Shown in pieces: positions 12,991 to 55,517 of a stretch of 64,000 nt of DNA. This stretch comes from an uncultured Porphyromonadaceae bacterium (lineage in GTDB: Bacteria; Bacteroidota; Bacteroidia; Bacteroidales; Muribaculaceae). The stretch spans positions 1-64,000 of the forward strand of contig CANPMT010000007.1 of NCBI GenBank assembly GCA_947575235.1, in the 5' to 3' direction. The translations under genes and the position numbers were made by a program. Below the pieces are notes generated by a model. It saw only the letters and a list, made by a program, of their open reading frames with translations, was not told where the DNA came from and searched no databases. Numbering within the stretch: the first letter of the stretch is position 1; every line of letters starts with the position of its first letter.

Positions 12991-13022
12991 CATAAAAAGC
13001 AATGTTGGATTATACAGCTCAA

Positions 13023-26900: not shown

Positions 26901-27602
26901 CATGCCATAGCATCGCTTGCCATTCCCGGAGAGGATTATGAGCGTATTCCGGAATCGGTTGACGGAGGTATGGTGACAGACGACGAGCTTAATGCGGAGT
27001 TCTTCGCAGGTCTGGGATTCCGTTACGGCGAGGATAGCGCCAATCCATGGAGAGAGGTTCCGGAGACCGATCCCTCGCTCCATCATGAGCAGGGCGCCCT
27101 CTTCCTTTTGCCTGAGATTACGGCAGTCGAGGGTCAGCAGTTCAACGCCGACCTTCTTGTGATCTCACGTTCAGAAGTAGCCGTTGATGAGGTAGCCGAC
27201 AGTTTCTTCTGCGATTCAGATAATGAGTCGGTAGCCTATATGAACGGAGAGATGGCATATGAGTCAAATCTTCTCACATTAGGTTTCGATGCAGTCAAGG
27301 AGGGTGAGGCCAATATCACGGCCAACGTACTTGGCAATGAGGCCCGATTCAGAGTGAATGTAATCAAGGATGACTCAGGTGTGAAGGGTGTTGAGGATGC
27401 CGCCGGGCAGATGAGGATAGCATATGACGGCTCATCACTGGTGTGCCCCGGCGCGGATCTGACACTCTATTCAATCAATGGTGTGAAGGTGGCAGACGGC
27501 AACGGAGAGGTGAGGGTGAGCTCACTTCAGAAAGGTGTCTACACCGCAGTGGCGGTAAGCGCTGATGGCAACCGCGCCACACTGACTATAATAATCAGAT
27601 AA
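23970..27602 (+). CDS. Large secreted protein with GLUG-like repeats and C-terminal sorting-type tail
   Basis: signal peptide; FGGLVGEMAIGSVIKDCSVSNA, VGGLAAVGKTGSSIVSSSFIGS, LGGIIGEADKDGVFTDCHVDA, VGGIIGTSARATVRNCYVEG repeats; C-terminal LTLYSINGVKVA..KGVYTAVAV. Confidence 0.75.
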   Translation: MRKFYNSLLMATMVMVPLSAQAAPPGAGRPSGFSLEKFRYKAKSPASRMKVSPSVTLPGSDSFEYIDAPDGSTWFYTVKYEYEQREAESYTYEALASYRFDIYDSDLQYYGSVSDKVHLREGEIKAVDVSLVPQLTKKFFNFDDKYEVMVAYACNTPNYVNNYRTLVYSLGGAQDEEGNDKVVLEMDGLLSDVLNASRDVWSEEFYMTFAYEYQVEPVDDTLQAIRDSYMSKIEVYSKASYGSDGPKLVLEKDLSLSRYQGDQQYVAPVMSLFSDSTPYYVICEYEKPFVQVEEPEISDDFSFNIVETQTEDNNLIVSIYKLGQSVVTDPVQVTSIPVVKDTDPDVYFSYYSVGALGYRDDVVFAKDGTASFVVTKWNYLISDDDNYANYYYKYDSRGEREFTIFELADSSLAMTDVEGFAPQYMFVKAQGGDYDFCFVNMTNGEIESQFNYQIDENGKKQALLANLDRVAYGDSYCYVAEMRTPGLDADGNDIMRIAWINPDGTLNHVDEVNMGTRVQLAQCYIDAGVLSPYLFNTDDAYEYMVLVKRTISGSRAQEELLVAQPKNTLNPDGYTLLQLGPDAEKGSIGMIMPLNLDSDPRLLVVYRGDSYTQDFYTLPLESFKGGDGTQENPYQIANIGDFREIRRNLNGYYTVVSDIDASALELASIGSSTKPFTGHIDGGGHTISNLKVNDAKGGAIFATVSNASISNLNFLNAEVVMKAETSNALIARSFMNSILDNVHVRGLLAEADREDDTKFGGLVGEMAIGSVIKDCSVSNARISVPGSSSFYAVGGLAAVGKTGSSIVSSSFIGSIEAGENLGGIIGEADKDGVFTDCHVDADLKAANTVGGIIGTSARATVRNCYVEGTVEVTSKARKGGYKAGGIVGSLATYYGEQQEGARQRAAASPVIIEGNFVNLEKMTAPDDAAALGVMENSIHRIAGYTSYNNAEIDWENTEDFENPVYLPVIPETGLANNHAIASLAIPGEDYERIPESVDGGMVTDDELNAEFFAGLGFRYGEDSANPWREVPETDPSLHHEQGALFLLPEITAVEGQQFNADLLVISRSEVAVDEVADSFFCDSDNESVAYMNGEMAYESNLLTLGFDAVKEGEANITANVLGNEARFRVNVIKDDSGVKGVEDAAGQMRIAYDGSSLVCPGADLTLYSINGVKVADGNGEVRVSSLQKGVYTAVAVSADGNRATLTIIIR

Positions 27603-27628
27603 CCTATACTAACTAAAACCAACTGACT

Positions 27629-29929
27629 ATGACCAGACATCTATTACTGACCATAGCTATCGCAGCCGCAGGCTCGTTGCTTCAGGAAGCCGACGCCCAG
27701 TATCTGCAGGTCAACGGCATGACACCCTCACCGGGTGCCACTGTCAAGAGCCTCTCGACAGTGAAAATCGAATTCGGTCTCAACACCGGCGAGGGTATGG
27801 CAATGCCCATTGTCGATGATTTCTCCGGCATAACCCTCACAAGTGGTGACGGGGCCGCGGTGAGCGCCACAGAGGTGACCTCCGATGTCGACAACTGGCC
27901 CATCAACACTGTCATCATCAATTTCCCGGCAGTGACGGCTCCCGGCACATACACACTCTCGGTTCCGGCCGATGTGTTCGCCGAGTGTGTATGGAGCGAC
28001 GAGGCCGACAACTTCCTGCCCCTTGAGGAACTCACCAATAGTCCGATTTCAGCGGTATATACGGTAAGCGCGGATGCCGCCTCGGTGTTCGACAACTATA
28101 TACTGACACCGGCCGCCGGTTCGAAAGTGGCCCGTATATCGGAGATAGGGTTGAGCTTCCCTGATGCTCCCTATTCTATAGAGCGTAACGACGAACTGGA
28201 GGTGACCATCAGCAACGGCACCACCACATATCCCGGCACAGTGGGAGGCTGGGGTAACGAGAATATCACAATCTTCTTCGAGGAGGGTTATGACGAGGTC
28301 GTGATCAGTGAAGAGGGTATGTGGAAACTGTGTGTTCCCCAGGGTCTCTTCAGTGCCGACGGTGAGGAGAGCCCCGCAATCGAGGCTGAATATGAGGTCA
28401 CGACCAACGTGGATTTCCCCGTTACCTTTGAACCGGCCAACGGCTCGACACAGGAATTGCCCGACGGTCATGCCGTCAATGTCAATTTCATGTTTGACAC
28501 AGCTTCAGAGGTTGACCTCTCACCTTATTATGATGATGCCTTTATCCGTGTGAGCTACAACGGGCAGCCCATAGCCAAGGTGAGCAACGCTCTCAATGAT
28601 TACGGGTGGCAGGCGGTCGACAACTGGGGTGACCCGCTCTACACCGTGCGTCTTAACAAGGATATCTTCACCACGAACGGCGAACTTCTGATAGAGGCCG
28701 ACAAGGGAGCGTTCACAGTCGACGGACTCCCCTCACCAGAGATCACCTACACTCTGAAATTCGGTGAGAACAGGACTTTCGACTACATCCTCACCCCCGA
28801 GGCCGGAGCTTACGACGAACTTCAGTCGTTCTCACTCACATTCCTGGAGTCAAATACAATCGAGTTGGTTGAAGGATCGTATATCGTACTTACAGGAGAG
28901 AGGGTTTATCAGCAGTATAAAGTTGACATTCTCCAGCCCGATTGTTACTGTCCCGAATCAGCTTGGATTACTTTTGATCCGGCTCCATACGTGGCAGGAG
29001 ATTACCGTCTCATCATCGAGGAGGGAGCGTTCATCATAGACGGCACCTATCTGAGTCCGGCCATCACGGTTGACTACACGCTCAACCGTGTCACCGAGAT
29101 TGACATGAGCTGCAATCCTTCGCCCGAGGGAGAGAAAGTGATAGCCGAGGATTACGGCACATATGTGGCCTTTGTATTTGCCGAGGATGAGAAGGTTGTG
29201 CCGCAGGGTGGTTTCGCCGATAAGATTTCGGTTGAATTTGACGGAGTGACTTTGACCCGCGACACCGACTATGCTATCGAGGTAGGTGGAGAGGATGCCT
29301 TCAAGGTGCTTGTCAACATCGAGGGTAACAGTCCCTACGTAGGTAAGGAGGGTGAGCTGAAAGTCACCATCGGAGCCGGCGCGTTCACAATCGGCGGAGA
29401 GGAATTCGAGGGCACAAGCCACACATGGCAGGTGGTACGTCCCAAGACCTACGGGTTTGTACTTGATCCGGAAGCGGGAGCCACTGTCAAGAGTCTGGAG
29501 ACAATTACAGTAAGTTTCCCTGCGGCCGAGACAGCCACACTTTTCCGCAACAACTACATAACGTTGCGTGCGGCCGACTATTCAGGCTACTTCCAGAATC
29601 CGGCCTCTGCCGAGGCTATCGAAGGGTTGGGTTGTCCGGCCTACAAGCTGACATTCGATCCGGCTCCCGATAAGGATGGTGATTATGTGCTTTCGTTCAA
29701 CTACTACGCGTTCCAGTTTGACGGTGTTCAGAATTCGGAGAATTATGACGTTACCTACACACTCGACACCCTCAACAGTGTTGACGAGATAAAGGGAGCG
29801 GCTGAGAATGTGACGGTTTACTCGGTAGATGGGCGCAAGGTGCTCGACAACGCGGCTCCGGAAGCGCTGGAGCAGCTCAGCGACGGCCTCTACATAGTGA
29901 ACGGAAAGAAAGTCCTGGTGAGGAAGTAA
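27629..29929 (+). CDS. Secreted protein made of about six tandem Ig-like/beta-sandwich modules with sorting-type tail
   Basis: repeated [TDS]P.{2}G..V..L..[IV]...F motif; C-terminal TVYSVDGRKV..LSDGLYIVNGKKVLVRK. Confidence 0.75.
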   Translation: MTRHLLLTIAIAAAGSLLQEADAQYLQVNGMTPSPGATVKSLSTVKIEFGLNTGEGMAMPIVDDFSGITLTSGDGAAVSATEVTSDVDNWPINTVIINFPAVTAPGTYTLSVPADVFAECVWSDEADNFLPLEELTNSPISAVYTVSADAASVFDNYILTPAAGSKVARISEIGLSFPDAPYSIERNDELEVTISNGTTTYPGTVGGWGNENITIFFEEGYDEVVISEEGMWKLCVPQGLFSADGEESPAIEAEYEVTTNVDFPVTFEPANGSTQELPDGHAVNVNFMFDTASEVDLSPYYDDAFIRVSYNGQPIAKVSNALNDYGWQAVDNWGDPLYTVRLNKDIFTTNGELLIEADKGAFTVDGLPSPEITYTLKFGENRTFDYILTPEAGAYDELQSFSLTFLESNTIELVEGSYIVLTGERVYQQYKVDILQPDCYCPESAWITFDPAPYVAGDYRLIIEEGAFIIDGTYLSPAITVDYTLNRVTEIDMSCNPSPEGEKVIAEDYGTYVAFVFAEDEKVVPQGGFADKISVEFDGVTLTRDTDYAIEVGGEDAFKVLVNIEGNSPYVGKEGELKVTIGAGAFTIGGEEFEGTSHTWQVVRPKTYGFVLDPEAGATVKSLETITVSFPAAETATLFRNNYITLRAADYSGYFQNPASAEAIEGLGCPAYKLTFDPAPDKDGDYVLSFNYYAFQFDGVQNSENYDVTYTLDTLNSVDEIKGAAENVTVYSVDGRKVLDNAAPEALEQLSDGLYIVNGKKVLVRK

Positions 29930-30057: not shown

Positions 30058-30088
30058 TTTGTGGGGATAAAAAATTGAGTTAAATTTG
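30058..30088 (+). promoter_or_regulatory. Promoter of the cobalamin operon
   Basis: TTTG (30058-30061), 19 bp, TAAATTTG (30081-30088). Confidence 0.7.
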
Positions 30089-30119
30089 CGGCAGAATAAC
30101 ATTTTGAAACCAATACAGT

Positions 30120-30306
30120 TCTGGTGTCATGCTTTTACCGGGTATCCCGGTAGAAGATGGCTTAAAAGGGAATCGGGTGAGAATCCCGGACAGTCCCGCT
30201 GCTGTGAGTTCCGAAAAAAGCAGTCACAAATCGTGTCACTGGCAAATCTGCGAAAGATGCCGGGAAGGCCGTGGCTGTGGAACGAGTCAGAAGACCTGCC
30301 AGAATT
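30120..30306 (+). promoter_or_regulatory. Cobalamin (adenosylcobalamin-class) riboswitch aptamer
   Basis: conserved B12-box elements: ttAAAAGGGAAtcgGGTGAgAATCCCGGACAGTCCCGCTGCTGTGA ... GAGTCAGAAGACCTGCC; boundaries approximate. Confidence 0.95.
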
Positions 30307-30380
30307 GCTTTTCAGCAAAAGCTCTCGAGGGTTAGAGCGTGCTGACGATTCTGTGCTTGCCAACAAGACCAGCTCGTTAT

Positions 30381-30459
30381 CATGCGTTAACCTCCGATAG
30401 ACGTCTTCAAAAAGAAGACGTGTTGTAATAAATATCAACTAATTAACCAACAACGCATG
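30381..30459 (+). promoter_or_regulatory. Putative translational expression platform of the riboswitch
   Basis: CATGCGTT (30381-30388) is an exact complement of AACGCATG (30452-30459, includes the ATG); an internal hairpin ACGTCTTC-aaaaa-GAAGACGT lies at 30401-30421. Confidence 0.5.
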
Positions 30460-32016
30460 AAAAGAATTTTATCTTTCGCAGCGGCATTACTCGCTTTCAC
30501 AGCGGTAAATGCAGAGGATTACGAGTTGAGAGTTCTCACTTTTGAGGACTCCGACTACGCAACCAACAATGGTGTATCCGGCTACTGGTCCGGATTGATC
30601 GACGAGCCTCAGTATGGAGGTGAACTTCTCTATGGAGAGGGCGGTGGTGACATGGGTTCAACCGGTCAGGTGCTTGGCTACCGCTGGTTTGACAACAACA
30701 ACACCTTCCTGCAGTCAGCATTCCCGGAAAATTTCGGTGGTCAGCAGATGTATTGGGGTGGCGGGCATGCTATCTCAAACTATTGGGACAGTGAGATTGC
30801 CAATGGTGACTACGAGCATCAGCTTTCAGTATATGCGCGTGGAGAGAGTGGTGACGGTAGAGGTGGTCATGGTCATAATGGCTCAGATAATTTCTGTGTG
30901 CATTATGGGTATAAGGATGATTACTCGGAGTCAATCGGTATGGAGAATCTTCCCTACTTCGAATTCGCAGATGGAGCATACCGAACCATCGACCACATGT
31001 ATGTGAATCTCAATACCTATCTGGCCAACTGCATTGCCAACGGCAATGACCTCACCTCAAGTCTCGGAGAGGGTGAGTATGTGAGAGTGGTAGCAACCGG
31101 TTACAGATCGCGAGGTACAAAAACGGCATTATTTGACCTTGCTTCTGAAGATGGTACTGTTATTGGGGATTGGACAAAATGGGATTTGTCTGGGTTAGGT
31201 GATGTAACGAAGGTAGATTTCAATATTGTCGGAAGCAGTGATAACGGTTATGGATTCTCTCAGCCGGCATATTTCTGCTATGATGATGTGGCTGTGCGTT
31301 TCCCTGCAAGTGGGAATGGGGTTGCTACCCAGCAGAAAGTGGAAGCTCTTTCTGAGGAGGAAGATGGAGAAGATGTGATTTATAAGATGGTTGTGAATCC
31401 GGATTATGATGAACCAAATGACGAATCAATAATTCGATTGAGTGGGGATGTCCCGGAAGGCGTGTTCGGATTATTTGAGACTAATAAGATTTGGGAAACG
31501 TATCTTGAACCTGATGCTTATATTACGGTGACACTTAAAGGAATGCCTGATAATGCTGTCATTACAAAAATAGAATCTAATGTAGGGGTGCCAAGTACTG
31601 GAGGAGCAGGCGTTATAACTTGCTCAAACGATGGTGTGGATTTTGCGAATCTTGCTTTTTGTGGACGTTTCATTCCGGAAGATCATGGTATTGTTGTTCA
31701 TGAAGAGGGAAATTTTGGAGATTCGTTTGCTACCCTTGAACATGAGATATTTGATCCGGAACATGCAAGGTGTAAAGGTGATTTTGTGATATATAGTGAA
31801 AATGTAAATCTGAGTCATCTTGGAAAGCAATACACAACTTACGTTCACATTACTGAGCATACGATTTATTATAAACTTGACAACTCTGTAGGAGTGAACG
31901 GTGTTGAGGCCGAGCAGTATGTTGATGACTCTTACTACACGCTTCAGGGTGTACGTGTTGATAATCCTACGAAGGGTATCTATATCCATAAGGGTAAGAA
32001 GGTAATCCTTAAATAA
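30457..32016 (+). CDS. Secreted DUF4465-like protein with C-terminal sorting-type tail, first gene of the B12 operon
   Basis: FEDSDYATNNGVSGYWSGLIDEPQYGGELLYG..WGGGHAISNYWDS..ENLPYFEFADGAYRTIDHMYVNLNTY; C-terminal YYTLQGVRVDNPTKGIYIHKGKKVILK. Confidence 0.75.
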   Translation: MKRILSFAAALLAFTAVNAEDYELRVLTFEDSDYATNNGVSGYWSGLIDEPQYGGELLYGEGGGDMGSTGQVLGYRWFDNNNTFLQSAFPENFGGQQMYWGGGHAISNYWDSEIANGDYEHQLSVYARGESGDGRGGHGHNGSDNFCVHYGYKDDYSESIGMENLPYFEFADGAYRTIDHMYVNLNTYLANCIANGNDLTSSLGEGEYVRVVATGYRSRGTKTALFDLASEDGTVIGDWTKWDLSGLGDVTKVDFNIVGSSDNGYGFSQPAYFCYDDVAVRFPASGNGVATQQKVEALSEEEDGEDVIYKMVVNPDYDEPNDESIIRLSGDVPEGVFGLFETNKIWETYLEPDAYITVTLKGMPDNAVITKIESNVGVPSTGGAGVITCSNDGVDFANLAFCGRFIPEDHGIVVHEEGNFGDSFATLEHEIFDPEHARCKGDFVIYSENVNLSHLGKQYTTYVHITEHTIYYKLDNSVGVNGVEAEQYVDDSYYTLQGVRVDNPTKGIYIHKGKKVILK

Positions 32017-32061
32017 AGCTAAGATTATCTCATTCAAAACAAACAAATAAAGCAAAAGGGG

Positions 32062-32086
32062 GTGCATCATACAAATCATGATGCAC
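32062..32086 (+). repeat. Intercistronic hairpin between the DUF4465-like gene and the btuB-like gene
   Basis: GTGCATCAT-acaaatc-ATGATGCAC. Confidence 0.7.
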
Positions 32087-32130
32087 TTCCTCTTGCTCGT
32101 ATTATAATCCTTTAGCTAAGTTCATAGCTT

Positions 32131-34176
32131 ATGCCAGTTAACCTCAGCTTCAGTCATCGCCGGATTCTTCTCTTGTTATCATGGCTGTCTTTTATTTTGC
32201 CGGCAAGTGCGGTTGTCAATAAAACTGAAATAATCAATAAAAACGATACGGTCACTGATCTTGAAGAGATAGTGGTGCTTGCCGACGCCCCTTCGCAAGA
32301 TGATATCATATCCGGTCAGACCCTCGATGGCAAGACCCTCGAATGTATGAATGCCCTCAATGTGGCGGATGCCCTGCGCTATTTCGCCGGTGTCCAGCTG
32401 AAGGACTACGGAGGAGTGGGGGGTATCAAGACCATCAACATTCGTTCGATGGGTACAAACCATGTGGGGGTGTTTTACGACGGTATACAACTATCGAATG
32501 CACAGAACGGACAGGTTGACCTTGGCCAGTACTCACTCGACAACATCAGGGAGATATCTCTTTACAATGGGCAGAAGAGCCAGATTTTCCAGTCGGCAAA
32601 AGATTTCAACTCGGCTGGTTCCATATATCTCTGGACACGTCACCCACAGTTTGAAGATGGAAAATCATTCAATCTGCGTGTGAAACTCAAGGCCGGTTCA
32701 AGCGACCTCATCAATCCCTCGGCCCTGATTGATCTCAAACTTTCGGAGAAGGTGGCGGCCACATTGAGTGCCGAGTGGCTATCGAGCAGTGGCAAGTATA
32801 AGTTCCGTTACCGTCGCAAGGCGGTTATGACCGATGAGATAATGTATGACACCACAGCCACACGCCAGAACGGAGACGTACGCGCGACGCGTCTTGAGGG
32901 TGCGCTCTACGGAAAGATTCATCGTGGATCCTGGATGATAAAGGCTTATAACTACACATCTGAGCGGGGAGTGCCGGGTGCCATCGTGAATAACGTATGG
33001 CGCAGAGGTGAACGTATCTGGGATAACAACTCATTCATACAGGGGACATTCCGCAAGGATTTCTCCGACCGTTATCATGCCCGTGCCATGATGAAATATT
33101 CCTATTATCTCACCAAATATGTCAATAAAGACACGACGGTGATGATGATTGACAATGTTTACCGACAGAAAGAGCTCTATTTCTCAACCTCACATCTATA
33201 TAACATAACTGACAACTGGGATGTATCGGGAGCCTACGATGTGCAGTGGAACACAATGGATGCCGACATGTATGGTTTCGTATATCCCACACGCTGGCAC
33301 AATTATATCTCAGTAGCTTCCTCGCTCAGTGTGGGGCGGGTGAAGATGCAGGGGAGTGTGGTGCTCAATCTGGTAAGCGACCATACACGTGATGCCGAAT
33401 CACCCGGCAACAAGACCGAGTGGACCCCGGCGTTCTTCATCGCCTATCATCCATTCCGGCAACACGACCTCAAACTCCACGGCTTCGCCAAGAGAAGTTT
33501 CCGTATGCCCACCTTCAACGACCTTTACTATGCCGAGATGGGTAACTCCCAGTTGCGTCCCGAGTTGGCTACCCAATATGATGTGGGTATCGCCTACAAC
33601 AGTGTCCCTTCCACCGGGTTCTTTACATCCTGGGGGGTGCAGGTCGACGGTTACCGCAATTTTGTCAAGGATAAGATTGTTGCATATCCCAAAGGAGCCC
33701 AGTTCCGATGGACCATGCTCAATCTTGGCAAGGTACACGTCACGGGACTCGATGTGCAGGCTTCGATGATGGTGCAGCCGGTAACGAACCTCATGCTGAC
33801 ACTGAGGTTGCAATACACCTATCAGGAGGCGTATGACGTTACCTCACCTGCCGATACATACTATCGCGACCAGATTCCATACATTCCATGGCATAGCGGC
33901 AGCGGTATTTTTCAGGCTGATTACCGCGGATGGGCATTCAACTGCAGTTTCATCTACACAGGTGAGCGATATAATCAGCAGGAGAACATTGTCTACAATC
34001 ATACCCAGCCATGGTACACCACCGATCTCTCCCTCTCAAAGACCTTCACCATAAAGAACTACACAATGAGGGGGCAGGTGGAGGTGAACAATGTATTCAG
34101 TCAGGACTATGATGTGATACTCAACTATCCGATGCCGAAGCGTAACTACCGTTTCACCTTGTCATTTACAATATAA
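32131..34176 (+). CDS. btuB: BtuB-like TonB-dependent receptor (vitamin B12)
   Basis: plug (LEEIVVLADAPSQDD..GVQLKDYGGVGGIKTINIRSMGTNHVGVFYDGIQLSNAQNGQVDLGQYSLDNI) and barrel; no SusC-type N-terminal extension; downstream of a cobalamin riboswitch. Confidence 0.85.
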   Translation: MPVNLSFSHRRILLLLSWLSFILPASAVVNKTEIINKNDTVTDLEEIVVLADAPSQDDIISGQTLDGKTLECMNALNVADALRYFAGVQLKDYGGVGGIKTINIRSMGTNHVGVFYDGIQLSNAQNGQVDLGQYSLDNIREISLYNGQKSQIFQSAKDFNSAGSIYLWTRHPQFEDGKSFNLRVKLKAGSSDLINPSALIDLKLSEKVAATLSAEWLSSSGKYKFRYRRKAVMTDEIMYDTTATRQNGDVRATRLEGALYGKIHRGSWMIKAYNYTSERGVPGAIVNNVWRRGERIWDNNSFIQGTFRKDFSDRYHARAMMKYSYYLTKYVNKDTTVMMIDNVYRQKELYFSTSHLYNITDNWDVSGAYDVQWNTMDADMYGFVYPTRWHNYISVASSLSVGRVKMQGSVVLNLVSDHTRDAESPGNKTEWTPAFFIAYHPFRQHDLKLHGFAKRSFRMPTFNDLYYAEMGNSQLRPELATQYDVGIAYNSVPSTGFFTSWGVQVDGYRNFVKDKIVAYPKGAQFRWTMLNLGKVHVTGLDVQASMMVQPVTNLMLTLRLQYTYQEAYDVTSPADTYYRDQIPYIPWHSGSGIFQADYRGWAFNCSFIYTGERYNQQENIVYNHTQPWYTTDLSLSKTFTIKNYTMRGQVEVNNVFSQDYDVILNYPMPKRNYRFTLSFTI

Positions 34177-34190
34177 CCTTTCTCCTGTAT

Positions 34191-35441
34191 ATGCTGATAA
34201 AAGAGAATATAATTAAGATCTGCGTGGCAGCGTCAGCTGCCGTAATGGCACTTTCATCATGCCATAATGAGATAGAGATTGTCTCGTTAGGGATAAATGA
34301 TTATTACTATCTCCCCCGGATGAAGAAACTCCGGATGGAGACGGCTTACGAAGGGGAGGCCTTCCGATGGTTTGCCATTGACAAAGAGGGTAACGACTCC
34401 TTGGTGTCGACGGCACGCAGCTACACCTTCCTCAAAGGTGAGGAGGGGGAATATCATCTCCGCTTCGAGATAGATATGGAGGGGCGCACCATGAAACATA
34501 GTTTCCCGATATTCGTGGTGCACGAGGAGGTGGAGTATTCCCCCTATACTGCCAACGTCTATGAATACCGTCCGGCACCGGGGCAGTTTGTCAACACCAT
34601 GCCGATGTATTCACCGGGCGACACCGAGAAGGATATGGTGCGCAAGGCAAAGGACGCACTCCTGAGCGATGAGATGATAACTCTCGGAGCTTACGGAGGG
34701 TACGTGACATTCGGGTTTGACCACACTGTGTGCAACACTCCCGGACAGATGGACTTCATGATAAAGGGTAACGCCTTCTATAGCGACCTCCCTGAATATG
34801 AGGAGCTGCAGGGGGGTAGTTCAGAACCGGGGATTGTGATGGTGAGTGTCGACAGCAACGGAAACGGTGTCCCCGATGATGAATGGTATGAACTGGCAGG
34901 TTCGGAGTATTACAAATCCACCACTCTCAAGAATTACATGATAACCTACAGCCGTCCCCAGGAGGGCAGGGAGCCTGTGCCGGATAAGAAGAACCAGATA
35001 TCCGACCTTTATTACATACCCTGGACTGACAATCATGGCGGGAGCGGCTACGTAGCCAAGAACACCTATCACACGCAGGATTATTTCCCGGCATGGCTTG
35101 ATGATGACACCATGACCTTCTCCGGCTCCCTGCTCCCTCAGAACGGGGTTGACGAGAGCCACCGTGGCACCTACTTCGTGCTTTACGCCTATCCCTGGGG
35201 ATATGTCGATAACCAGCCGAACCGCCTGATGTCGCTCAACTGCTTCAACATTGACTGGGCTGTGGATGGCGATGGAAATCCGGTGCATCTTGACGGAGTT
35301 GACTTTATACGGGTCTACACAGGGGTTAACCAATACTGCGGATGGCTTGGCGAGACCTCAACCGAGGTATTGCGTGCCACCGACCTGCACATTGACAATG
35401 ATGAGTATCTTTTTGACCAGACCGGGGGGAGTAATAATTAA
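34191..35441 (+). CDS. Surface lipoprotein of the B12 locus
   Basis: lipobox MALSSC; PAPGQFVNTMP..LGAYGGYVTFGFDH..VDSNGNGVPDDEWYELAGSEY. Confidence 0.7.
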   Translation: MLIKENIIKICVAASAAVMALSSCHNEIEIVSLGINDYYYLPRMKKLRMETAYEGEAFRWFAIDKEGNDSLVSTARSYTFLKGEEGEYHLRFEIDMEGRTMKHSFPIFVVHEEVEYSPYTANVYEYRPAPGQFVNTMPMYSPGDTEKDMVRKAKDALLSDEMITLGAYGGYVTFGFDHTVCNTPGQMDFMIKGNAFYSDLPEYEELQGGSSEPGIVMVSVDSNGNGVPDDEWYELAGSEYYKSTTLKNYMITYSRPQEGREPVPDKKNQISDLYYIPWTDNHGGSGYVAKNTYHTQDYFPAWLDDDTMTFSGSLLPQNGVDESHRGTYFVLYAYPWGYVDNQPNRLMSLNCFNIDWAVDGDGNPVHLDGVDFIRVYTGVNQYCGWLGETSTEVLRATDLHIDNDEYLFDQTGGSNN

Positions 35442-35445
35442 CTCA

Positions 35446-36609
35446 ATGCTTATGGGAAGAATTATAGTGTTTTTTATAGTCATCATGCTCCTGGCGGCTT
35501 GCCGTGAGGATGAGGTGGTGGTGCCGACAGAGTATGACATATTGCCCGGCACGTTGGCTCCTGTGGAATCTGAGATTGACGGGATGTATCTTGTGAATGA
35601 GGGTAACATGGGGAGTAACAAATGCACGCTCGATTATCTTGATTACCGGCAGGGATATTATGTGCGCAATCTATACGCCGAGCGTAACCCTACGGTGATA
35701 AAGGAGTTGGGGGACGTGGGTAATGACATACAGATTTACAACGGACGCCTGTATGTGGTGGTGAACTGCTCAAACAAGGTAGAGGTGCTTGATGCGGCTA
35801 CCGGAGTAAGGATAGGTCAGGTCAATATTCCCAACTGCCGTTATATCCGTTTCTACCGCAACAAGGCATACGTGACAAGTTATGTAGGCCCTGTCCAGCT
35901 CAACAACCCTGATGCCGTGCCGGGAGCTGTCTACCGTTTCGACACCAGGACTCTTGAAATCGAGGGGCGTGTGGCTGTGGGGTATCAACCCGACGAACTA
36001 TGTGTGTTGGGGCAATATATCTATGTGGCGAATTCCGGAGGCTATATGGCTCCGAATTATGACAACACCGTGTCGCAGATAGAGATAGAGGGATTCAAAC
36101 AGGTACACAAGATTCCTGTGGCAATCAATCTGCACCGTATCCGCTCTGACAGATATGGGAAACTGTGGGTGACGTCGCGAGGTGACTATGAGAGCATAGG
36201 GAGCAATCTCTATGTGCTGGAGAAGAAACAGGGGCGCAACGAGATGGTGGTGACCGACACTCTCAACGTGCCTTGCACCAACCTCACAATCAGTGGCGAC
36301 TCCCTGTATTACTATGCCACGGAATGGAACAACTATACCCAACGCAACACCATCACCTATGGCATAATAGATATACGCACACATCAACGGGTGTCAGACC
36401 ATTTCATTACTGACGGCACTGAGAGTGACATCACAATTCCATACGGAATCGCGATACATCCCGAGAATGGAGATATCTACGTCACAGATGCCAAGAATTA
36501 CGTGTCGAGCGGAGTGCTCAACTGCTATTCACGCGAGGGTGTGCTGAAATGGCGCGTAAGGACAGGAGACATTCCCGCACATATGTGCTTCAGATACAAG
36601 GATGAATAA
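35446..36609 (+). CDS. btuG: BtuG-like surface lipoprotein, beta-propeller (DUF5074/YncE-like)
   Basis: lipobox MLLAAC; GMYLVNEGNMGSNKCTLDYLD; YVANSGGYMAPNYDNTVSQIEI propeller repeats; adjacent to the btuB-like gene. ORF track starts at an upstream 35251. Confidence 0.8.
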   Translation: MLMGRIIVFFIVIMLLAACREDEVVVPTEYDILPGTLAPVESEIDGMYLVNEGNMGSNKCTLDYLDYRQGYYVRNLYAERNPTVIKELGDVGNDIQIYNGRLYVVVNCSNKVEVLDAATGVRIGQVNIPNCRYIRFYRNKAYVTSYVGPVQLNNPDAVPGAVYRFDTRTLEIEGRVAVGYQPDELCVLGQYIYVANSGGYMAPNYDNTVSQIEIEGFKQVHKIPVAINLHRIRSDRYGKLWVTSRGDYESIGSNLYVLEKKQGRNEMVVTDTLNVPCTNLTISGDSLYYYATEWNNYTQRNTITYGIIDIRTHQRVSDHFITDGTESDITIPYGIAIHPENGDIYVTDAKNYVSSGVLNCYSREGVLKWRVRTGDIPAHMCFRYKDE

Positions 36610-36621
36610 AAATAATAGTAT

Positions 36622-38337
36622 ATGATAAAAAAATTCTCGACATTGATTTATCTTGCAGCCGTTATGGCAGGAGGCGTGGGTGTGTCGCCGGCGTCTGCGC
36701 AGGATGGTGATTACACAAAGGGTTTCTTTGTGCTCAACGAGGACTGGTATGGCCATCAGAACTCCACAATCAACTGGATGACAGATGATGGTGAATGGTA
36801 TTACCGTGTTTTCAAATATGAGAATCCCGGTCAGGAACTGGGGTGTACGGCACAGTATGGCACTGTCTATGCCGACCGGTTGTATATAATAGCCAAACAG
36901 GATCGCGATCCCGGGGCGAGTGTCACCGGAGGCCGTGTCACAGTTTGCGACGCCGCAAGCCTTAAATGTATATCACAGATAAGCGGCATAGGGTTGGCTC
37001 CGGCATCAAATGGCAACAGCTATCATGTGGATGGACGTGCCTTTGTGGGTTGGAACAGCGACAAGGGCTACATCAGCACGAGCAACGGAGTGTGGAGCTT
37101 CGACCTCAATTCAAATACCGTGATAGACTCCATACCCGGCACCACACACAACGCCATAGGTTATGACCGCCTTTACACCCATCAGTGCGGATCGATGGTG
37201 CGTGCCGCCGGGAGGATATTTGTGGCTCACCAGCAGAAAGGATTGTTGGTGATAGACCCTGAGACAGACACACTGCTGACAACCATTGTGCCCCCCGACG
37301 AGGTGGCGTATAACAGCGATGGCTCTGAAGAGGAGGTAGGCGGCAGTCTGTTTGAGGGGAACTGGAATCATCAGACCTCTTTCGGTTCGGTAGTGCTGGC
37401 GAAGGATGGCTATCTCTACTGCTCGGTATCCGACAAGGATGGCATGGGTGGAAGGATGAACTATCTGGTACGCATAGATCCCGACACCTACGAGACAAAA
37501 TGTATAGAATTATGGAACCGGTTCGGATGCTACGGCCCGGCCAACTCCTGGTATGCCTGGACTCCGGACGGATTCTGTGCCTCGACCCGGGAGAATGTGC
37601 TCTATTGGAACGGCGGCGAGGACAGCTGGTTCAGCGCGTCTCGCATCTACCGCTATGATATAGATAAGGATGAATGCTCACTCTTCCTTGACTTCACTCC
37701 AACTACAAGACGGTTGTATGGATGCAGTTTCCGCATTGATCCGGTCACAGACCATGCCATACTGACTTTGCAGGAGAAACCCGACGTGAATAATCCGATG
37801 GATTTCTCAAATCCGGTTTTCCTCCTTCAGGAATATGACAACGAAGGAAACCTCGTTGCAGAGCACGACATGATACAGAATTACTGGTTTCCGAGTATTC
37901 CGATTTTCATTGACAGATATGAACCGGAGAATCTGATTGCTGAGGATATACGTCACGATGGAGGGGAGACTTTCTCAATCGATATGTCAACTCTTTTTCG
38001 TGATGCCGACGATATGGTAAGCGCCATGCGGTTCAGCGTGCTGACTGAGTCAAATCCGGGACTTTTCAGCTACCGTTTCAGCCACGGTCAACTTATTTTG
38101 ACTCCTGAAGAGCTGACCGGCACCACCGACCTGACCATAGAGGCCGACAGCCGTGGACGTATCGTGACAGCCAACGTGCGGATTGTGCAGACTGATGACA
38201 GCGGAGTGGATGAGGTGATGAGTGAAAGTCCTGATGAGATTTATTATGACCTTGCAGGGCGACGCCTCAGCAATCCGGAGGGTGCGCATATCGTTGTGGC
38301 ACGAGGAAAGAAAATATTAACCAAAACATCAAAATAA
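36622..38337 (+). CDS. Second BtuG-like (DUF5074-type) propeller protein with C-terminal extension and sorting-type tail
   Basis: GFFVLNEDWYGHQNSTINWM; propeller-like repeats; C-terminal EIYYDLAGRRLSNPEGAHIVVARGKKILTK. Confidence 0.7.
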   Translation: MIKKFSTLIYLAAVMAGGVGVSPASAQDGDYTKGFFVLNEDWYGHQNSTINWMTDDGEWYYRVFKYENPGQELGCTAQYGTVYADRLYIIAKQDRDPGASVTGGRVTVCDAASLKCISQISGIGLAPASNGNSYHVDGRAFVGWNSDKGYISTSNGVWSFDLNSNTVIDSIPGTTHNAIGYDRLYTHQCGSMVRAAGRIFVAHQQKGLLVIDPETDTLLTTIVPPDEVAYNSDGSEEEVGGSLFEGNWNHQTSFGSVVLAKDGYLYCSVSDKDGMGGRMNYLVRIDPDTYETKCIELWNRFGCYGPANSWYAWTPDGFCASTRENVLYWNGGEDSWFSASRIYRYDIDKDECSLFLDFTPTTRRLYGCSFRIDPVTDHAILTLQEKPDVNNPMDFSNPVFLLQEYDNEGNLVAEHDMIQNYWFPSIPIFIDRYEPENLIAEDIRHDGGETFSIDMSTLFRDADDMVSAMRFSVLTESNPGLFSYRFSHGQLILTPEELTGTTDLTIEADSRGRIVTANVRIVQTDDSGVDEVMSESPDEIYYDLAGRRLSNPEGAHIVVARGKKILTKTSK

Positions 38338-38340
38338 ATC

Positions 38341-41300
38341 ATGAAAAGATTATTGACGTTGATAGTGGCTTTGATAAGTTTCTCTGCATGGGCCGGAGAG
38401 AGTTTTGTAGCCAAGGACTATCAGCATGAGGGACTGGTGCAGAAGTTCCGCACCACAGTAAGCATTCCATTTACCGAACTGTTTGATTATCCGGATGCCG
38501 TGCCGACGACAGCTGATTTCAATGACGCGGCATATGGAGTGAGTTATGAATTCGACTTCTTCGAGGAGGACACCCCGCTATCGCTCTATAAATGTGAGTA
38601 TTCAAACAAATCTTTCAGGGCTCACATATATATGGCGTCACGCCGTTATGGCACCTTCAGATTCCGTGTGCGTGTCACCTATAACGGAGAGACAGCCGAA
38701 AGCACAGTCTCAATCAAAACCAGGGCCGTGCTTACGCAAGATGATAAGGCAACTGTGGCTCCCGGTAAAGAGGTGGTGATAGACCCTCTGCTCAACGATA
38801 ATTTTGCCGAGACATCGCAGAAGAAAGACCTTACCCTCCTGTCGCTCGATAAAGTGACGGTTAAGCCGGAGTCAGGTGAATTGGCATTGACGGAGGTTGA
38901 TGGACGTCCCGCTTTCATCTACACCTGCAGCCGTGATGCCATGACTTTCTCAGAGGATAGTTTCAGCTATTATTATGAAGTGGCTTATGGTGATGTAATG
39001 GAACGCGTCGATGCCACATGCCGTATTGACGTACACGGCAAGATGTATGCCACGCGGGTCATAGACTTCCTCCCCGCACCCGGTCAGTTCACCAACACCT
39101 TCAACTTTGGAATGGCCGACCGTGAAACCCAGGAGGCACAGACCTGCAACGGCAAAGGGATGGGTCTTAGTCTCGGTTCGTTCGGAGGCTACATCATCTT
39201 TGGATTTGACCAACCCATCTATAACAATCCGCAGAATCCCTATGGAGTAGACTTCACTGTGCTCGGAAATGCTTTCACAGGTGACCTCTACGGACAATGG
39301 AGCGAGGCAGCCTCGGTGCAGGTGATGGAGGATAAGAATGGCAACGGCATTCCCGACGACGGGGAGTGGTATGAGTTGGCAGGTTCCGACTACTGGCTCT
39401 CATCGACTGTGCGTAACCTTGAGATGACCTATTACAATCCCGGTTACAACCGCCGTTACACTGTACCCTTCACCACCAACACCGACCTTTGTGGCGCGGT
39501 GATGACCAATCACTTCCATGAGCAACCCTATTATCCCGATCCCTTTGAATTCGGGTGTGACCGCGACAAGATCACTTTCAGCGGCAACATGATACAGTCT
39601 TGCCCCGACAAGAGGGCGCCATCGTATATCGAATTCTATCGATGCCCGGCATTCGGCTATGCAGACAATCACCCCTCTTCGAGCGCCGACCCCACCATCC
39701 CCTCCAATCCCTATTACGCAGATGATAGGGGTGCTGTGCAGGATGGATTCGACCTGTCATGGGCAGTAGATAAAGATGGAAATCATGTGGATCTCGAGAA
39801 GGTGGACTTTGTGAAGGTCTATAATGCCGGTTGGGCAAATTTAGGCTGGTTGGGTGAATGGAGCGCTGAATGTCTCGGTGTTGCGATATCCCGTCCGGAT
39901 CCGGAATATGTGGCTGAAGACTATTACCTGAATTACATAGGAATCACGCAACTCCTTGTGCCGACAGGTAAGGAGGTGAGATTTGAAGGCTTGGCTTTCC
40001 GCAACGGCCGGCCAATAGATGATGGTGTAAAGGAATGGTGGGTGCCGGAGGAATATGCCGGAATCATAAGTGTGGATGCCGATGGCGTAGTGAAGGGTCT
40101 GCAGCCGGGTGAGGCTAAGCTCTGCTTCCGGCAGACAGATAAGGCGCCGGCCGACACCATCGACCTTCAGGTATGTGACATCAACAAGGTGATAATCGAC
40201 CAGGAAGGTAACACCGGTGTGGCAAGCAACACAAGGACCGAACTCATAGTCGGAGAGATGGTATATATAAATGCCGAGGATGAGTTTGCCACAGATGAGG
40301 TGCTGAATGGTCAACGTCGCAACCGTTACGCCTACGAACAATATGATTGGGAGAGCTCAGACCCCGGGGTGGGAACCATCAACAACGGTCTTTTCACCGG
40401 ATTGAAGGAGGGTGAGACCATGGTGACGGTGCGTTCACGTATCAAACCGGAGCTTTACGCCGAGATGCTGATGGTGGTCAATCCTGTGCCGGAGGTGGTG
40501 CAGGGTGCCGAGAGTTTCGGAGTGGCTGCGAATGAGCCGAAGGGCAGTTTCAGCAATGCCGAACTTTTTGAGACCGGTATAGATGCCACTGTCTATATCA
40601 CCTCAGTGCGTCCGACGACTGTTTCGCCGGAATGGATTTATCAGGATGGGAATGCTTTGGGTTATAGTTTCATGCCGGATGAATTCACAGCAGACGATGT
40701 AGTGGTGGGCTGGGAATTCCGAGGCACAGAGGGGGAGTTCACCTACAAGGTGAGATATGATTCAGACATCACCCAGAGCGGAGCTGACGGCCAGATGAAC
40801 ATGGCTGTCCGTGAGGGTGAATGGAGCACACTCTGTCTGCCATATACAATTTCAGGTGTACGCAACATCACCATGTATTCGGTAATGGGACATGATCCAT
40901 CGTATACCAGACTGTTATTGGAGCCGATAGGGGATACACTTGAGGCCGGCCGACCCTGCATATATTATGCGAATGCCTCGACTATGCGTGCCGCTATTGG
41001 AGAAGACACCGTTGATGAGGCAACTGATGAGAATGGACTTCACGGCACTTTTGCCGATGTGACCTTGCCGTCAGGGGCATGCAGGGTAGCCGCCGGAATT
41101 GTGACCGACTCTCCCGGCTGGGTTGTGAAGAGTGGACTGGCCTACGTCCAGATTTCAGAAGTGCCAGAGGTGGCTGATTATAATCCATCAATGCCATACA
41201 TGGATCTGAAGACCACAGCATCCGTTGGAGATGTGATTTACGACATTCCTGAGGACGCCATCTATTACGACATGATGGGGCGCCGTCTTGATGCTCCGCA

Positions 41301-41361
41301 GAAAGGTGTGAATATTATCCGCCTACCCAACGGTGTCACCAGAAAGGTATATGTGAGATAA
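38341..41361 (+). CDS. Large multidomain secreted protein of the B12 locus (WYELAGS module, Ig-like region, sorting-type tail)
   Basis: LPAPGQFTNTFNF..LGSFGGYIIFGFDQPI..DKNGNGIPDDGEWYELAGSDYW shared with the 34191 product; C-terminal AIYYDMMGRRLDAPQKGVNIIRLPNG. Confidence 0.7.
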   Translation: MKRLLTLIVALISFSAWAGESFVAKDYQHEGLVQKFRTTVSIPFTELFDYPDAVPTTADFNDAAYGVSYEFDFFEEDTPLSLYKCEYSNKSFRAHIYMASRRYGTFRFRVRVTYNGETAESTVSIKTRAVLTQDDKATVAPGKEVVIDPLLNDNFAETSQKKDLTLLSLDKVTVKPESGELALTEVDGRPAFIYTCSRDAMTFSEDSFSYYYEVAYGDVMERVDATCRIDVHGKMYATRVIDFLPAPGQFTNTFNFGMADRETQEAQTCNGKGMGLSLGSFGGYIIFGFDQPIYNNPQNPYGVDFTVLGNAFTGDLYGQWSEAASVQVMEDKNGNGIPDDGEWYELAGSDYWLSSTVRNLEMTYYNPGYNRRYTVPFTTNTDLCGAVMTNHFHEQPYYPDPFEFGCDRDKITFSGNMIQSCPDKRAPSYIEFYRCPAFGYADNHPSSSADPTIPSNPYYADDRGAVQDGFDLSWAVDKDGNHVDLEKVDFVKVYNAGWANLGWLGEWSAECLGVAISRPDPEYVAEDYYLNYIGITQLLVPTGKEVRFEGLAFRNGRPIDDGVKEWWVPEEYAGIISVDADGVVKGLQPGEAKLCFRQTDKAPADTIDLQVCDINKVIIDQEGNTGVASNTRTELIVGEMVYINAEDEFATDEVLNGQRRNRYAYEQYDWESSDPGVGTINNGLFTGLKEGETMVTVRSRIKPELYAEMLMVVNPVPEVVQGAESFGVAANEPKGSFSNAELFETGIDATVYITSVRPTTVSPEWIYQDGNALGYSFMPDEFTADDVVVGWEFRGTEGEFTYKVRYDSDITQSGADGQMNMAVREGEWSTLCLPYTISGVRNITMYSVMGHDPSYTRLLLEPIGDTLEAGRPCIYYANASTMRAAIGEDTVDEATDENGLHGTFADVTLPSGACRVAAGIVTDSPGWVVKSGLAYVQISEVPEVADYNPSMPYMDLKTTASVGDVIYDIPEDAIYYDMMGRRLDAPQKGVNIIRLPNGVTRKVYVR

Positions 41362-41399
41362 GTTGCGGCTCATTGCACCAAGGAACTGATAAAATTGTT

Positions 41400-41435
41400 A
41401 AAACCACGGAAAGGAATTTTTCTTTCCGTGGTTTT
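41400..41435. terminator. Bidirectional terminator between the B12 operon (+) and HTCS gene (-)
   Basis: AAAACCACGGAAAG-gaattttt-CTTTCCGTGGTTTT, 14-bp perfect stem with A/T tracts on both sides. Confidence 0.85.
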
Positions 41436-41485: not shown

Positions 41486-44400
41486 TCATGAGCCGTGTTT
41501 TGCGACATACTCACTTGGAGTCATGCCATAGAGTTTCTTGAAAGCGGTAGAGAAATTATTCGGACTTGAGAAACCAACCTGATCGCTTATTTGCGCCACA
41601 TTTATCTTGTGTTCTACCAGAAGTTCTGCTGCACGGTTCAGACGATAGTTCCTGATAAATTCCTTAGGCGACTGGTTGGTGATCTCCTTTATCTTGCGAT
41701 ATAGATGCACACGGCTCAGTCCTACTTTGTCTGCAATCCTTTCGACGGTGAGTTCAGGATCCGAGAGATTCTCGTTGATGATTTTCATCATTCTCTCCAT
41801 CAGTTTGTCATCGTTTGAGACTGTCTCTATCTTCTGGACATGTTTCTCCTGGGTCTGACTCCCGTCGAAAGCTTTCTTCAGACGTGAATAATTATCAATC
41901 AAAGTAGCCACTCTTTTCAGCAGTACGTCGATATTGAACGGTTTGCTGATGTATGCATCCGCTCCGGCATCGAGCCCGGCGATATTATCTTCATTCCGGG
42001 TTTTGGCAGTAAGCAGAATCACCGGCAGGGTGTTGAGCTTCACATTACGTTTGATTGTTCTGGTGAGTTCAATGCCATCCATGACAGGCATCATGACATC
42101 GCTGATTATAAGGTCAGGTTGGTTTTTGTAAATAGCTTCGAGAGCCTCCTTCCCATTCGGGTGACATTCAACATTGTAGGTTTTCCCAAGTTCTATGCCG
42201 AGGTAATTCTGTATCTCCACATCATCCTCTACAATGAATACAGTCTTGCGGCTTTTGAGACGCTTCTCTTTCATAGGGATATTCTCAAAAGGAGGCATCT
42301 CAATCTCGTTGGCCACGGGATGTGAGATTGTCTCGCGGCTATTGCCGTCAGGAAGATTTTGGGGTGGATTAGCAGGGAGTGTCACAGTGAATACAGTTCC
42401 TTTACCCGCCTCTTTATTCTCCTTTACAGATATACCGCCTCCATGAAGTTTCACCAACGCGTTGGTGATATGAAGTCCCACCCCGGTGCCCCCTGTCATA
42501 TGGTTCGGAGCCTGATAGAAGCGGTCGAAAATCTTCTCACGTTCACTTGCAGGCACGCCTACTCCGGTGTCAGACACTGCAATATTTATTGAGTCGCCTG
42601 ATTTATACAGTGAAACGTGGATGTTTCCCCCTTTGGGGGTATATTTTATTGCATTCGAGAGGAGGTTCATCATCACCTTGTCGAAATTCTCACAGTCAAC
42701 CCACATCGGGATATCGTCGCAGCCGGGATGCGAGAAAGAGAGGTCGATATCCTTGTTATTGGCAACCGGACGGAAGAGTTCCACAAGTTCGTTGATAAAC
42801 TCAGCGGCTCTTACCTCGCGTATAGTCATCTGCATTTTCCCTTTCTCAATTTTCCTGAAATCCATCACCTCATTCACAAGGTGCATTATGCGGTTGGCGT
42901 TACGAAGCATGAGATTATACACCTTGGTGTGTTCCCCGTCTTTGTTTTCGGCTATGAGACGGCGCAAAGGATCGATGATGAGCGACATAGGGGTTCTTAT
43001 ATCGTGAGATATATTCACCAGGAACTGAATTCTTGATTCATTCATCTGTGCCACGTGGTCAAGTTCCATCTCCTTCTGTTTTCTGCGCTGTTCCTGAATG
43101 TAAGCTATCGCTATAGTGGTAAATACCAATATAATCAGTAGGAGATAGAGAATCTTAGCCCAGATTGTCTGATACCAGGCCGGACGCACATCGATGCTGA
43201 GTGTGCGTATGTCAGACTCAACGCCGTTGTCAATCACTTTGATGCGGAGTTTATGTTTGCCGTATGGGATATCCGAGAAGTTGAGAAGAGCTTTCCCTAT
43301 GGAGGGGCGTGGACTTCCGGCTTCCGTCTTTATCCATTCGTCATTGTCGAAAGCATACCAATATTCCACCTGGGAGGTGCCCATCGGGTCGGAGGTGGTG
43401 AATTCGATGGCGAAAGAATTGTCATGATGAGACAGGGAGAAATTATCGGTCTCAAATATCGGACGGTCAATGATTTGTTTCCCTCCGGAGAGTGTCTCTG
43501 TCCTGACCGGGATTCCATTCAGATAGAAGTCGGAAATCCTTACGTCACGTTTACGTCCGGTAGGGTTGATATTCCGGGGATTAAAGTAAGTTAGTCCGTT
43601 TATGCCACCGAAATATAGTGTGCTGTCATGCCCCATAGCCACAGCGTTTCTTGAGAATTCGTTGCACTGGAGTCCGTCATCCACAGTGTAGTTCTGAATG
43701 GTGCCGTTACCGGGGGTGATTTTAGAGATGCCCATACTCGAGCCTGCCCAGATTGCACCGTCGGCCTCAGCCACAGAGTATATTGTTGAGGATGGCAGCC
43801 AATCGGCGGTGTTGAAAATTCTCATCAGGTTTCCATCGGCGTCCAGCTGGGCGAGCCCTTCGGAAGTGCCTATCCAATGATTTCCGTCGGTAGATTCAGT
43901 CACTGCATATACTATACGGGCAGGGAGTATGGCCTTCTCAGTGCCGGTGGTGAGATTCACGATATGCAACCCGGCATAAGAGCCCAGGAAAAGAAGGTTC
44001 CCCCTCTCGGAATAATGTATTGTCGGAATCCATAGAATATCATCTTCTGTGAGTTGCTGTGAGGTTATGATGTCTGTTTTTCCATCCATCTTGAAAAGTC
44101 CGCTTCCCATGGTTGAGATCCAGAGGTTGCCGTCGTGGTCTTTCACCATGCCGAACGAGTGTTTCACGTCATTGTGTGCTTTGTCGATAAGCCTGACAGG
44201 GTGATATTGTCCGGTTGCCTTGTCAATGGTGCCGACACCGTCGCCATATGATGTAATCCATAGACGCCCTGAGGAATCTTCCATAATTCCTGTTACGATA
44301 GGGGGGACGTTCCGGGTGAGGTGAAGCAATGGATTGCGGTTGTGGTCGAACTTATATATGCCGTCGTTATCCGTGCCAATCCATAATGTCCCGTCACAGT

Positions 44401-45475: not shown

Positions 45476-45601
45476 GAGTCGGGTGCGATATATTTTTCAG
45501 ATGGATTGAGTTATTCAGATATTTGATACAAAATTATATAAAAAACAGAATATGACAAAATATATAATCGCCATTATTTCAACAATGGCGACTATAATAA
45601 G

Positions 45602-45640
45602 AAAAACGCCGGGGAGAGCGGGTGTCCGGCTCTCTCCGGC
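45602..45640 (-). terminator. Intrinsic terminator of the xylan operon
   Basis: minus strand GCCGGAGAGAGC-cggacaccc-GCTCTCCCCGGC followed by gtttttc. Confidence 0.75.
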
Positions 45641-45668
45641 TAACCAAAATCAAATATTATGAGTATAA

Positions 45669-47885: not shown

Positions 47886-47920
47886 GATCAAGTATTGTTT
47901 TATTTATGATCAAGTCTGAG

Positions 47921-48934
47921 TTATTTATAAGAGAAAGAGAATTCCGTAAGCGAATTCTGGCGGTCGCGCATCACGAGATTATCCTCCAGAGTCACTTTGC
48001 AAGAGCCTTTAGCTCCGGTGGCCTCATCAGCCACATAGCTGATTTCGTATGAGGCATTGAGCTGGATATTGTCGCGATCCTTGCTTCCCCAGGCGTTGAG
48101 TGCTCCATGGTAGGTGTATTTACCGGAGCCGGAGGCAGTGCAGTCCGGGGAGTCAGTCGTTATTTTGACGCCGCCGTCATCCGAGAAATTCAGAAGGAGT
48201 GTGCAGGTCAGGGTTTTCTCAATCGTATTGCCCGACGCATTCACCACATCGACATTATGTGAGAACTCATACGCACACTGAGTGAGCGAGCGAGTGGTGA
48301 GATAACGGAGGTCAGCTTTCTCCCAGTTGGTGGCCGTACACTGGTAGGTGGATAAATTACCATTTACGTCAATGGTCTGTTTCCCACGGCTCAGCCAGCA
48401 TCCTGCCCATTGGTTCTTGTAGTCAATGGCATAGAGGGTGTAGTCTTTCTCCTCAAGGATATCAGTTGAGGCAGAGGCAATCTTCACCGGAAGCACGTAG
48501 TGCAGTCCGGTTGACTTCGGGTCAGCGAAGAAAGCATCCTCGAGATGTACAGGGAGATAGCCGAGCAGCTCACCCTTCTTGATTGTCACACGGGTGTCGC
48601 CGAGTGTGTAATAGTTCTCCGGAAGAATCTCCACTTTCTCTCCGTTTGAGTAATAAGCACCGTCAAGGAGGGTGGGGTCAATCTCTAATTGCACCCAGCG
48701 GTTTGATTTGTTGGTGTTGACACCACCCAGCACGGGACATATGTTCACAATGTGCTGGTTGTCAAGGGTAGTGTCAAATTCGCCATCCTCTCCTAAGGTG
48801 ACAGTGCGTATTGGCGACTGTTTGGCAAAGTAGATTGCCTGACGGTCAAAGTCAGGAAAGTCCTGATTGCCGTTCTGGCAGCCTGTGAACATGGCTGCCA
48901 CGCCCAATGTATATATTAAAAAGTTATGTTTCAT
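47921..48934 (-). CDS. DUF1735/DUF4361-like surface lipoprotein (putative glycan-binding, XusE-like position)
   Basis: lipobox AMFTGC; position between susD and the GH10 gene; beta-rich. Confidence 0.7.
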   Translation of the reverse strand: MKHNFLIYTLGVAAMFTGCQNGNQDFPDFDRQAIYFAKQSPIRTVTLGEDGEFDTTLDNQHIVNICPVLGGVNTNKSNRWVQLEIDPTLLDGAYYSNGEKVEILPENYYTLGDTRVTIKKGELLGYLPVHLEDAFFADPKSTGLHYVLPVKIASASTDILEEKDYTLYAIDYKNQWAGCWLSRGKQTIDVNGNLSTYQCTATNWEKADLRYLTTRSLTQCAYEFSHNVDVVNASGNTIEKTLTCTLLLNFSDDGGVKITTDSPDCTASGSGKYTYHGALNAWGSKDRDNIQLNASYEISYVADEATGAKGSCKVTLEDNLVMRDRQNSLTEFSFSYK

Positions 48935-48986
48935 TTTTTTAAGTGATTTTAGATTGTATCGGAAGCCGACACATCAATGAGGATTA

Positions 48987-50753: not shown

Positions 50754-50774
50754 TGTATTCTTCCGATTTTTAGT

Positions 50775-53597: not shown

Positions 53598-53618
53598 GAT
53601 TTAAGTAGCTTTACATTG

Positions 53619-55502: not shown

Positions 55503-55517
55503 TTTGATATTTCCCTT

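Follow-up and report, generated by a model that had tools for sequence, protein, structure and literature searches.

The closest described relative of the locus analysed here is btu operon 1 of Bacteroides thetaiotaomicron (BT_1486-1491), which reads btuK1-btuK2-btuH1-btuB1-btuGH-btuJ1 (K-K-H-B-GH-J; PMC12751083). B12 binding or import by the families of our operon has been demonstrated experimentally (PMC8941943, PMC10404256, PMC12751083, PMC13398666), and binding by the BtuJ/DUF4465, BtuK and BtuH families was reported in 2022 (PMC8941943), 2025 (PMC12751083) and 2026 (PMC13398666). BtuJ1 binds B12 with sub-nanomolar affinity, and BtuK1 of B. thetaiotaomicron binds it while BtuK2 does not (PMC12751083); divergent DUF4465 members also bound B12 on testing (PMC13398666). 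Among 824 DUF4465 sequences, 38% carried C-terminal extracellular targeting motifs (IPR026444, IPR013424), 33% carried lipoprotein signals and none carried both (PMC12751083). Muribaculaceae were reported in 2016 to have type IX secretion (T9SS) and to be without complete B12 synthesis (PMC4936053).

Here we describe an operon from a Muribaculaceae bacterium of the gut. It lies in a 64-kb window (the whole stretch of DNA analysed), which is contig C7 in a draft genome that totals 3.3 Mb. From sequence homology, it is likely a corrinoid capture and uptake operon built from the family kit of B. thetaiotaomicron operon 1, with three of its predicted binders exported by T9SS. The operon is real and largely explained, and its interest lies in these three binders, which probably take that route.

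A riboswitch-led operon of six genes

A preliminary description of this DNA had proposed a promoter, a cobalamin riboswitch, six co-directional genes and a terminator, a layout that pattern, Rfam, open-reading-frame and folding evidence bears out:

30058-30088, + strand: promoter TTTG-N19-TAAATTTG, a pattern match
30110-30317, + strand: cobalamin riboswitch aptamer RF00174 (97 bits, E 5.8e-23)
30318-30456, + strand: putative expression platform upstream of gene 1, a long imperfect hairpin plus an 8-bp hairpin (about 30401-30421)
30457-32016, + strand: gene 1, BtuJ-type DUF4465 protein, 519 aa
32131-34176, + strand: gene 2, BtuB TonB-dependent corrinoid receptor, 681 aa
34191-35441, + strand: gene 3, BtuH-type surface lipoprotein, 416 aa
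35446-36609 (alternative ATG 35452), + strand: gene 4, BtuG seven-bladed propeller lipoprotein, 387 aa
36622-38337, + strand: gene 5, BtuK-like propeller, 571 aa
38341-41361, + strand: gene 6, long BtuH-domain protein, 1006 aa
41397-41438, + strand: terminator, a symmetric 19-bp hairpin (-25.8 kcal/mol, z -7.4)

Patterns of the TTTG-N19-TAAATTTG type, which we take to be the Bacteroidota (Bacteroidales) promoter consensus, occur only five times across the 64 kb. The aptamer is full length (positions 1-189), scores 97 bits against a gathering score of 31.5 and is the sole Rfam match within the window. The stem between aptamer and gene 1 is highly stable (-44.5 kcal/mol, z -5.1) and could plausibly serve as the expression platform. 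With a riboswitch assigned by homology, the operon would be switched off by intracellular corrinoid. In this genome, a second cobalamin riboswitch (contig C2, 41595-41847; L043:596-848; 89.6 bits) precedes genes for a bifunctional aspartokinase/homoserine dehydrogenase, a phosphoglycerate mutase-like protein and threonine synthase, which suggests B12 control of threonine/homoserine supply, perhaps tied to B12-dependent methionine synthesis.

The spacing is also as first claimed, with 114 nt between gene 1 and btuB and other gaps of 14, 4 (or 10), 12 and 3 nt, and the terminator placed at 41400-41435 coincides with the hairpin that we find. Because this hairpin is symmetric, it probably also terminates the convergent gene (41486-45475, - strand). 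The minus-strand region 41486-58625 encodes a hybrid two-component-like regulator (1329 aa), then two SusC/SusD-like pairs plus lipoproteins, and by sequence resembles a polysaccharide utilisation locus. The 114-nt gap contains a 10-bp hairpin (32061-32087, z -3.3) with no U tract, possibly a processing or partial attenuation site. No second riboswitch or TTTG/TANNTTTG promoter was found in that gap, and we therefore rejected an extra riboswitch or promoter before btuB of the kind seen in B. thetaiotaomicron operon 1.

Known families account for all six genes

The core of the preliminary description, a B12 capture system that is based on BtuB and BtuG and controlled by a riboswitch, is well supported. 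Gene 2, named there as a BtuB-like receptor, encodes a TonB-dependent plug and barrel akin to those of B12 receptors; it matches PF07715 (E 1.5e-14) and TIGR01779 (E 2.6e-29), the latter yet below the proteobacterial equivalog cut-off. Gene 4 was rightly called a BtuG-like propeller lipoprotein: it matches 8blw (E 3.6e-41), 8ptf/8ptd (E 1.5e-40) and 8bmy, and has a lipobox (LLAAC-REDE). It also matches PF16819 (DUF5074), which exceeds its Pfam cut-off in this genome at genes 4 and 5 only. The adjacency of btuB and btuG is conserved in relatives.

Gene 3 had been listed as a surface lipoprotein and gene 6 as a 1006-aa multidomain protein; a BtuH domain common to the two (residues 117-403 and 235-514, respectively) had been missed. 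Gene 3 matches the H-domain of BtuG1 in 8blw at E 6.5e-80 and BtuH2 (7biz) at E 1.9e-50, and the corresponding values for gene 6 are 2.6e-41 and 6.6e-31. When the BtuH2 ligand residues of PMC8941943 (Q333, N399, F401, H476, Y510, W511, W577 and L578) were mapped onto the alignments, gene 3 retained every one except Trp511, which is Phe instead; gene 6 retained six (Gln333, Asn399, Phe401, His476, Trp577 and Leu578), with Tyr510/Trp511 ambiguous in the alignment. A lipid anchor as in B. thetaiotaomicron BtuH is present in gene 3 (lipobox ..LSSC) and absent from gene 6, which has a signal peptide without a lipobox and then, in order, an Ig-like domain, the BtuH domain, an Ig-like/Big_2 part, a C-terminal module and a short T9SS-type tail. 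Its last 200 residues gave no family match, and the structure model was too poor (mean pLDDT 56) to be used for function.

The DUF4465-like leader is confirmed by the match of gene 1 to PF14717 (E 1e-33), with a further match to the BtuJ2 structure 9i2l (E 1.5e-7). Its HI loop, SQPAYF, keeps the PAY and thus the key B12 tyrosine, while the preceding Asn/Thr is not kept. A signal peptide without a lipobox, a C-terminal domain of unknown type and a short tail complete the protein. Gene 5 is a DUF5074-type propeller as proposed (PF16819, E 1.2e-102), but its identity is BtuK-like: BtuK1 (9s6c) is the best solved relative (profile E 3.8e-20; best fold match E 3.3e-15; model pLDDT 77). It, too, has a signal peptide and no lipobox. 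Gene 5 may not bind B12, because BtuK2, of the same fold, does not (PMC12751083).

Since all six genes belong to families known from B. thetaiotaomicron, the products of genes 1, 5 and 6, put forward earlier as candidate new corrinoid-binding or surface-scavenging components, are of known kinds. Corrinoid binding by them is likely, and we rejected them as new binding families because they match BtuJ, BtuK and BtuH.

Sorting-type tails on three of the six proteins

Exactly genes 1, 5 and 6 carry T9SS-type C-terminal tails, of the form YYxLxGxR..P..GIYI....KV..K, a feature absent from the preliminary description of these genes:

31891-32013, + strand: short T9SS-type tail of gene 1 (leave-out profile E 8.5e-12)
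38203-38325, + strand: short T9SS-type tail of gene 5 (leave-out profile E 1.6e-7)
41221-41358, + strand: short T9SS-type tail of gene 6 (leave-out profile E 1.9e-7)

All three fall below the curated TIGR04183/PF18962 cut-offs. A T9SS claim from curated models alone, which fails for these genes, was dropped, and we relied instead on our own profiles, shuffles and leave-out scoring, in which the tails of this contig were excluded before its genes were scored. The leave-out profile found nothing on genes 2-4. Across the genome, the tail profile hit 50 places at E < 1. About 45 copies of the tail are present, and of 30 that were read, 27 finish no more than 6 residues before the stop codon. Aligned with the canonical type-A sorting domains (TIGR04183) of the same genome, the short tails gave an HHalign probability of 94.8% and a score of 41.4, whereas 100 column shuffles reached 12.8 at most. 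The T9SS machinery is encoded in the genome, with SprA (2654 bits), PorU (939 bits) and PorV (410 bits) all over cut-off. In an order-wide sample, SprA was present in 17 of 17 tail-bearing genomes but also in 140 of 149 overall, so the association between tail and SprA is not significant and is uninformative.

The lipobox and the tail were never found together in 77 complete proteins with BtuH or BtuJ domains: tails occur in 0 of 36 with a lipobox and 29 of 41 without (Fisher p 7e-12, among relatives that are not independent and loci chosen by similarity, a sample and not a census). BtuG had a lipobox in 30 of 30 cases and a tail in none of the 30. The transporter lid thus appears to stay lipid-anchored, whereas two export types coexist among the accessory binders.

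On this evidence, genes 1, 5 and 6 probably use type IX secretion. Of the two motifs in the published DUF4465 survey, we take IPR026444 to be the T9SS sorting domain. By that survey (PMC12751083), T9SS-type tails on BtuJ-type proteins are not new. In the open-access literature we found no report of tails on BtuK or BtuH, or of a single operon combining the two types of export; the extension of the tail finding to BtuK and BtuH within one riboswitch operon appears to be new.

Elsewhere in the window, this short C-terminal tail recurs in two more proteins, encoded at 11146-14684 (- strand). Just upstream, in the operon's direction but ahead of its promoter, lie two large genes (23970-29929) whose products, of 1210 and 766 aa, have signal peptides and weak tails of the TIGR04183 type.

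Relatives of the operon

Of 149 family genomes sampled, about 10 encode full-length or nearly full-length homologues of gene 6, and a scan of named genomes turned up relatives of gene 6 in Muribaculaceae from ruminant guts, plus one labelled Paludibacteraceae. Eight homologues lie either in a btu context or on a cut contig. Seven of these have the order riboswitch-btuB-btuG-btuH-K-long H; the contig of the eighth holds the long H only, and a ninth homologue is an orphan. The K and long H proteins of these relatives have no lipobox, and the complete ones end in sorting-domain-like tails; one long H scores 31.5 bits against TIGR04183, above the cut-off of 23.

DUF4465 was found in 96 of the 149 family genomes, partly in proteins of >2000 aa, one of which is encoded immediately downstream of a cobalamin riboswitch (111 bits) and ends in a PF18962 tail over threshold. 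DUF4465 proteins of roughly 2000-2350 aa with sorting-type tails occur at loci L104-L109, L111, L120 and L121, and in several cases a cobalamin riboswitch precedes the gene or the operon. BtuH-domain proteins without a lipobox can also end in dockerin-like repeats (L119:6470-7690, - strand, Dockerin_1 E 4e-9; also L014, L015, L021, L024 and L030), a possible third anchoring mode for B12 binders.

Discussion

We envision the following division of labour. To judge from homologues, when B12 is low the products of genes 2 and 4, BtuB and its lid BtuG, would form the outer-membrane importer, and the lipid-anchored BtuH (gene 3) would trap corrinoid at the cell surface. The products of genes 1, 5 and 6 would exit via Sec and then type IX secretion, their C-terminal tails being recognised and cut off by the PorU sortase, after which each protein would be either joined to surface lipopolysaccharide or released. 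The exported binders could then trap corrinoid farther out and pass it to the lipoproteins BtuH and BtuG and on to BtuB.

This might instead be an ordinary btu operon in which the products of genes 1, 5 and 6 are periplasmic or ordinary surface proteins and the tail is a folding cap rather than a sorting signal. The sub-threshold scores against curated T9SS models fit such a cap, as does the absence of this tail type from 123 of 140 SprA-positive genomes. We nevertheless judge it quite unlikely: the tail sits at the extreme C-terminus of about 45 proteins in one genome, is homologous to canonical sorting domains and excludes the lipobox, the gene 5 and gene 6 orthologues carry fuller sorting domains at their ends, and a periplasmic BtuH or BtuK would be on the wrong side of BtuB. 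Alternatively, genes 5 and 6 may have lost corrinoid binding and serve at the surface in some other way, for instance in adhesion or the formation of vesicles. Such roles have been proposed for BtuK2 and BtuL, neither of which binds (PMC12751083), and gene 6 consists mostly of Ig-like domains besides its unmatched C-terminal end; yet most of the BtuH ligand residues are retained in gene 6 and the operon is conserved under a riboswitch, and we regard this loss as unlikely.

The place of gene 1 in the unit can be questioned separately. In the long-H-operon relatives read, no DUF4465 gene separates the riboswitch from btuB. Gene 1 thus looks as if it had been added at this locus, and the hairpin in the 114-nt gap would suit a recent insertion that is functionally outside the unit. 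That gene 1 is functionally foreign is nonetheless very improbable, given that DUF4465 is a B12-binding family, that riboswitch-led operons with DUF4465 and BtuH are common in Muribaculaceae and that btuB has no second promoter or riboswitch ahead of it.

If, as we favour, the binders leave by T9SS, they would act beyond the membrane, which would alter models of gut B12 competition based on the lipoproteins and vesicles of Bacteroides and would give gut bacteria a second way of deploying B12 traps. More tentatively, B12 starvation in Muribaculaceae might drive the T9SS release or lipopolysaccharide-anchored display of high-affinity corrinoid binders, protein 'corrinophores' that feed BtuBG, a possibility to which we give somewhat less than even weight. 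The set would span the BtuJ, BtuK and BtuH types and the riboswitch-led DUF4465 proteins of >2000 aa and, if true, would be a secretion-based counterpart to the vesicle-borne Bacteroides lipoproteins. The role of accessory Btu proteins also becomes testable in another cellular arrangement.

Overall, the locus shares with B. thetaiotaomicron btu operon 1 the families K, H, B, G and J, a cobalamin riboswitch and surface capture. It differs in its order (J-B-H-G-K-H) and in having no second internal riboswitch; BtuG is unfused to H, one H is 1006 aa long, and J, K and one H have T9SS-type tails rather than lipoboxes. Like the lipoprotein-capped transporters BtuB2G2 and BtuB3G3, it holds btuB and btuG in one operon and has a lipoprotein propeller as BtuG, but here the BtuH gene lies between the two, whereas relatives read btuB-btuG-btuH. 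Gene 1 resembles BtuJ1 and BtuJ2 (DUF4465, IPR027828) in its DUF4465 domain and HI-loop P-A-Y, and departs from them in having no lipobox and an extra C-terminal domain plus tail. BtuK1 (9s6c) is closest to gene 5 in sequence and fold; unlike it, gene 5 has no lipobox and adds a C-terminal Ig-like part and a tail. Finally, gene 6 shares with BtuH2 (7biz) a B12-binding domain with most of the ligand residues, a domain that is C-terminal in BtuH2 and in gene 6 lies mid-protein, in a chain without a lipobox and with a tail.
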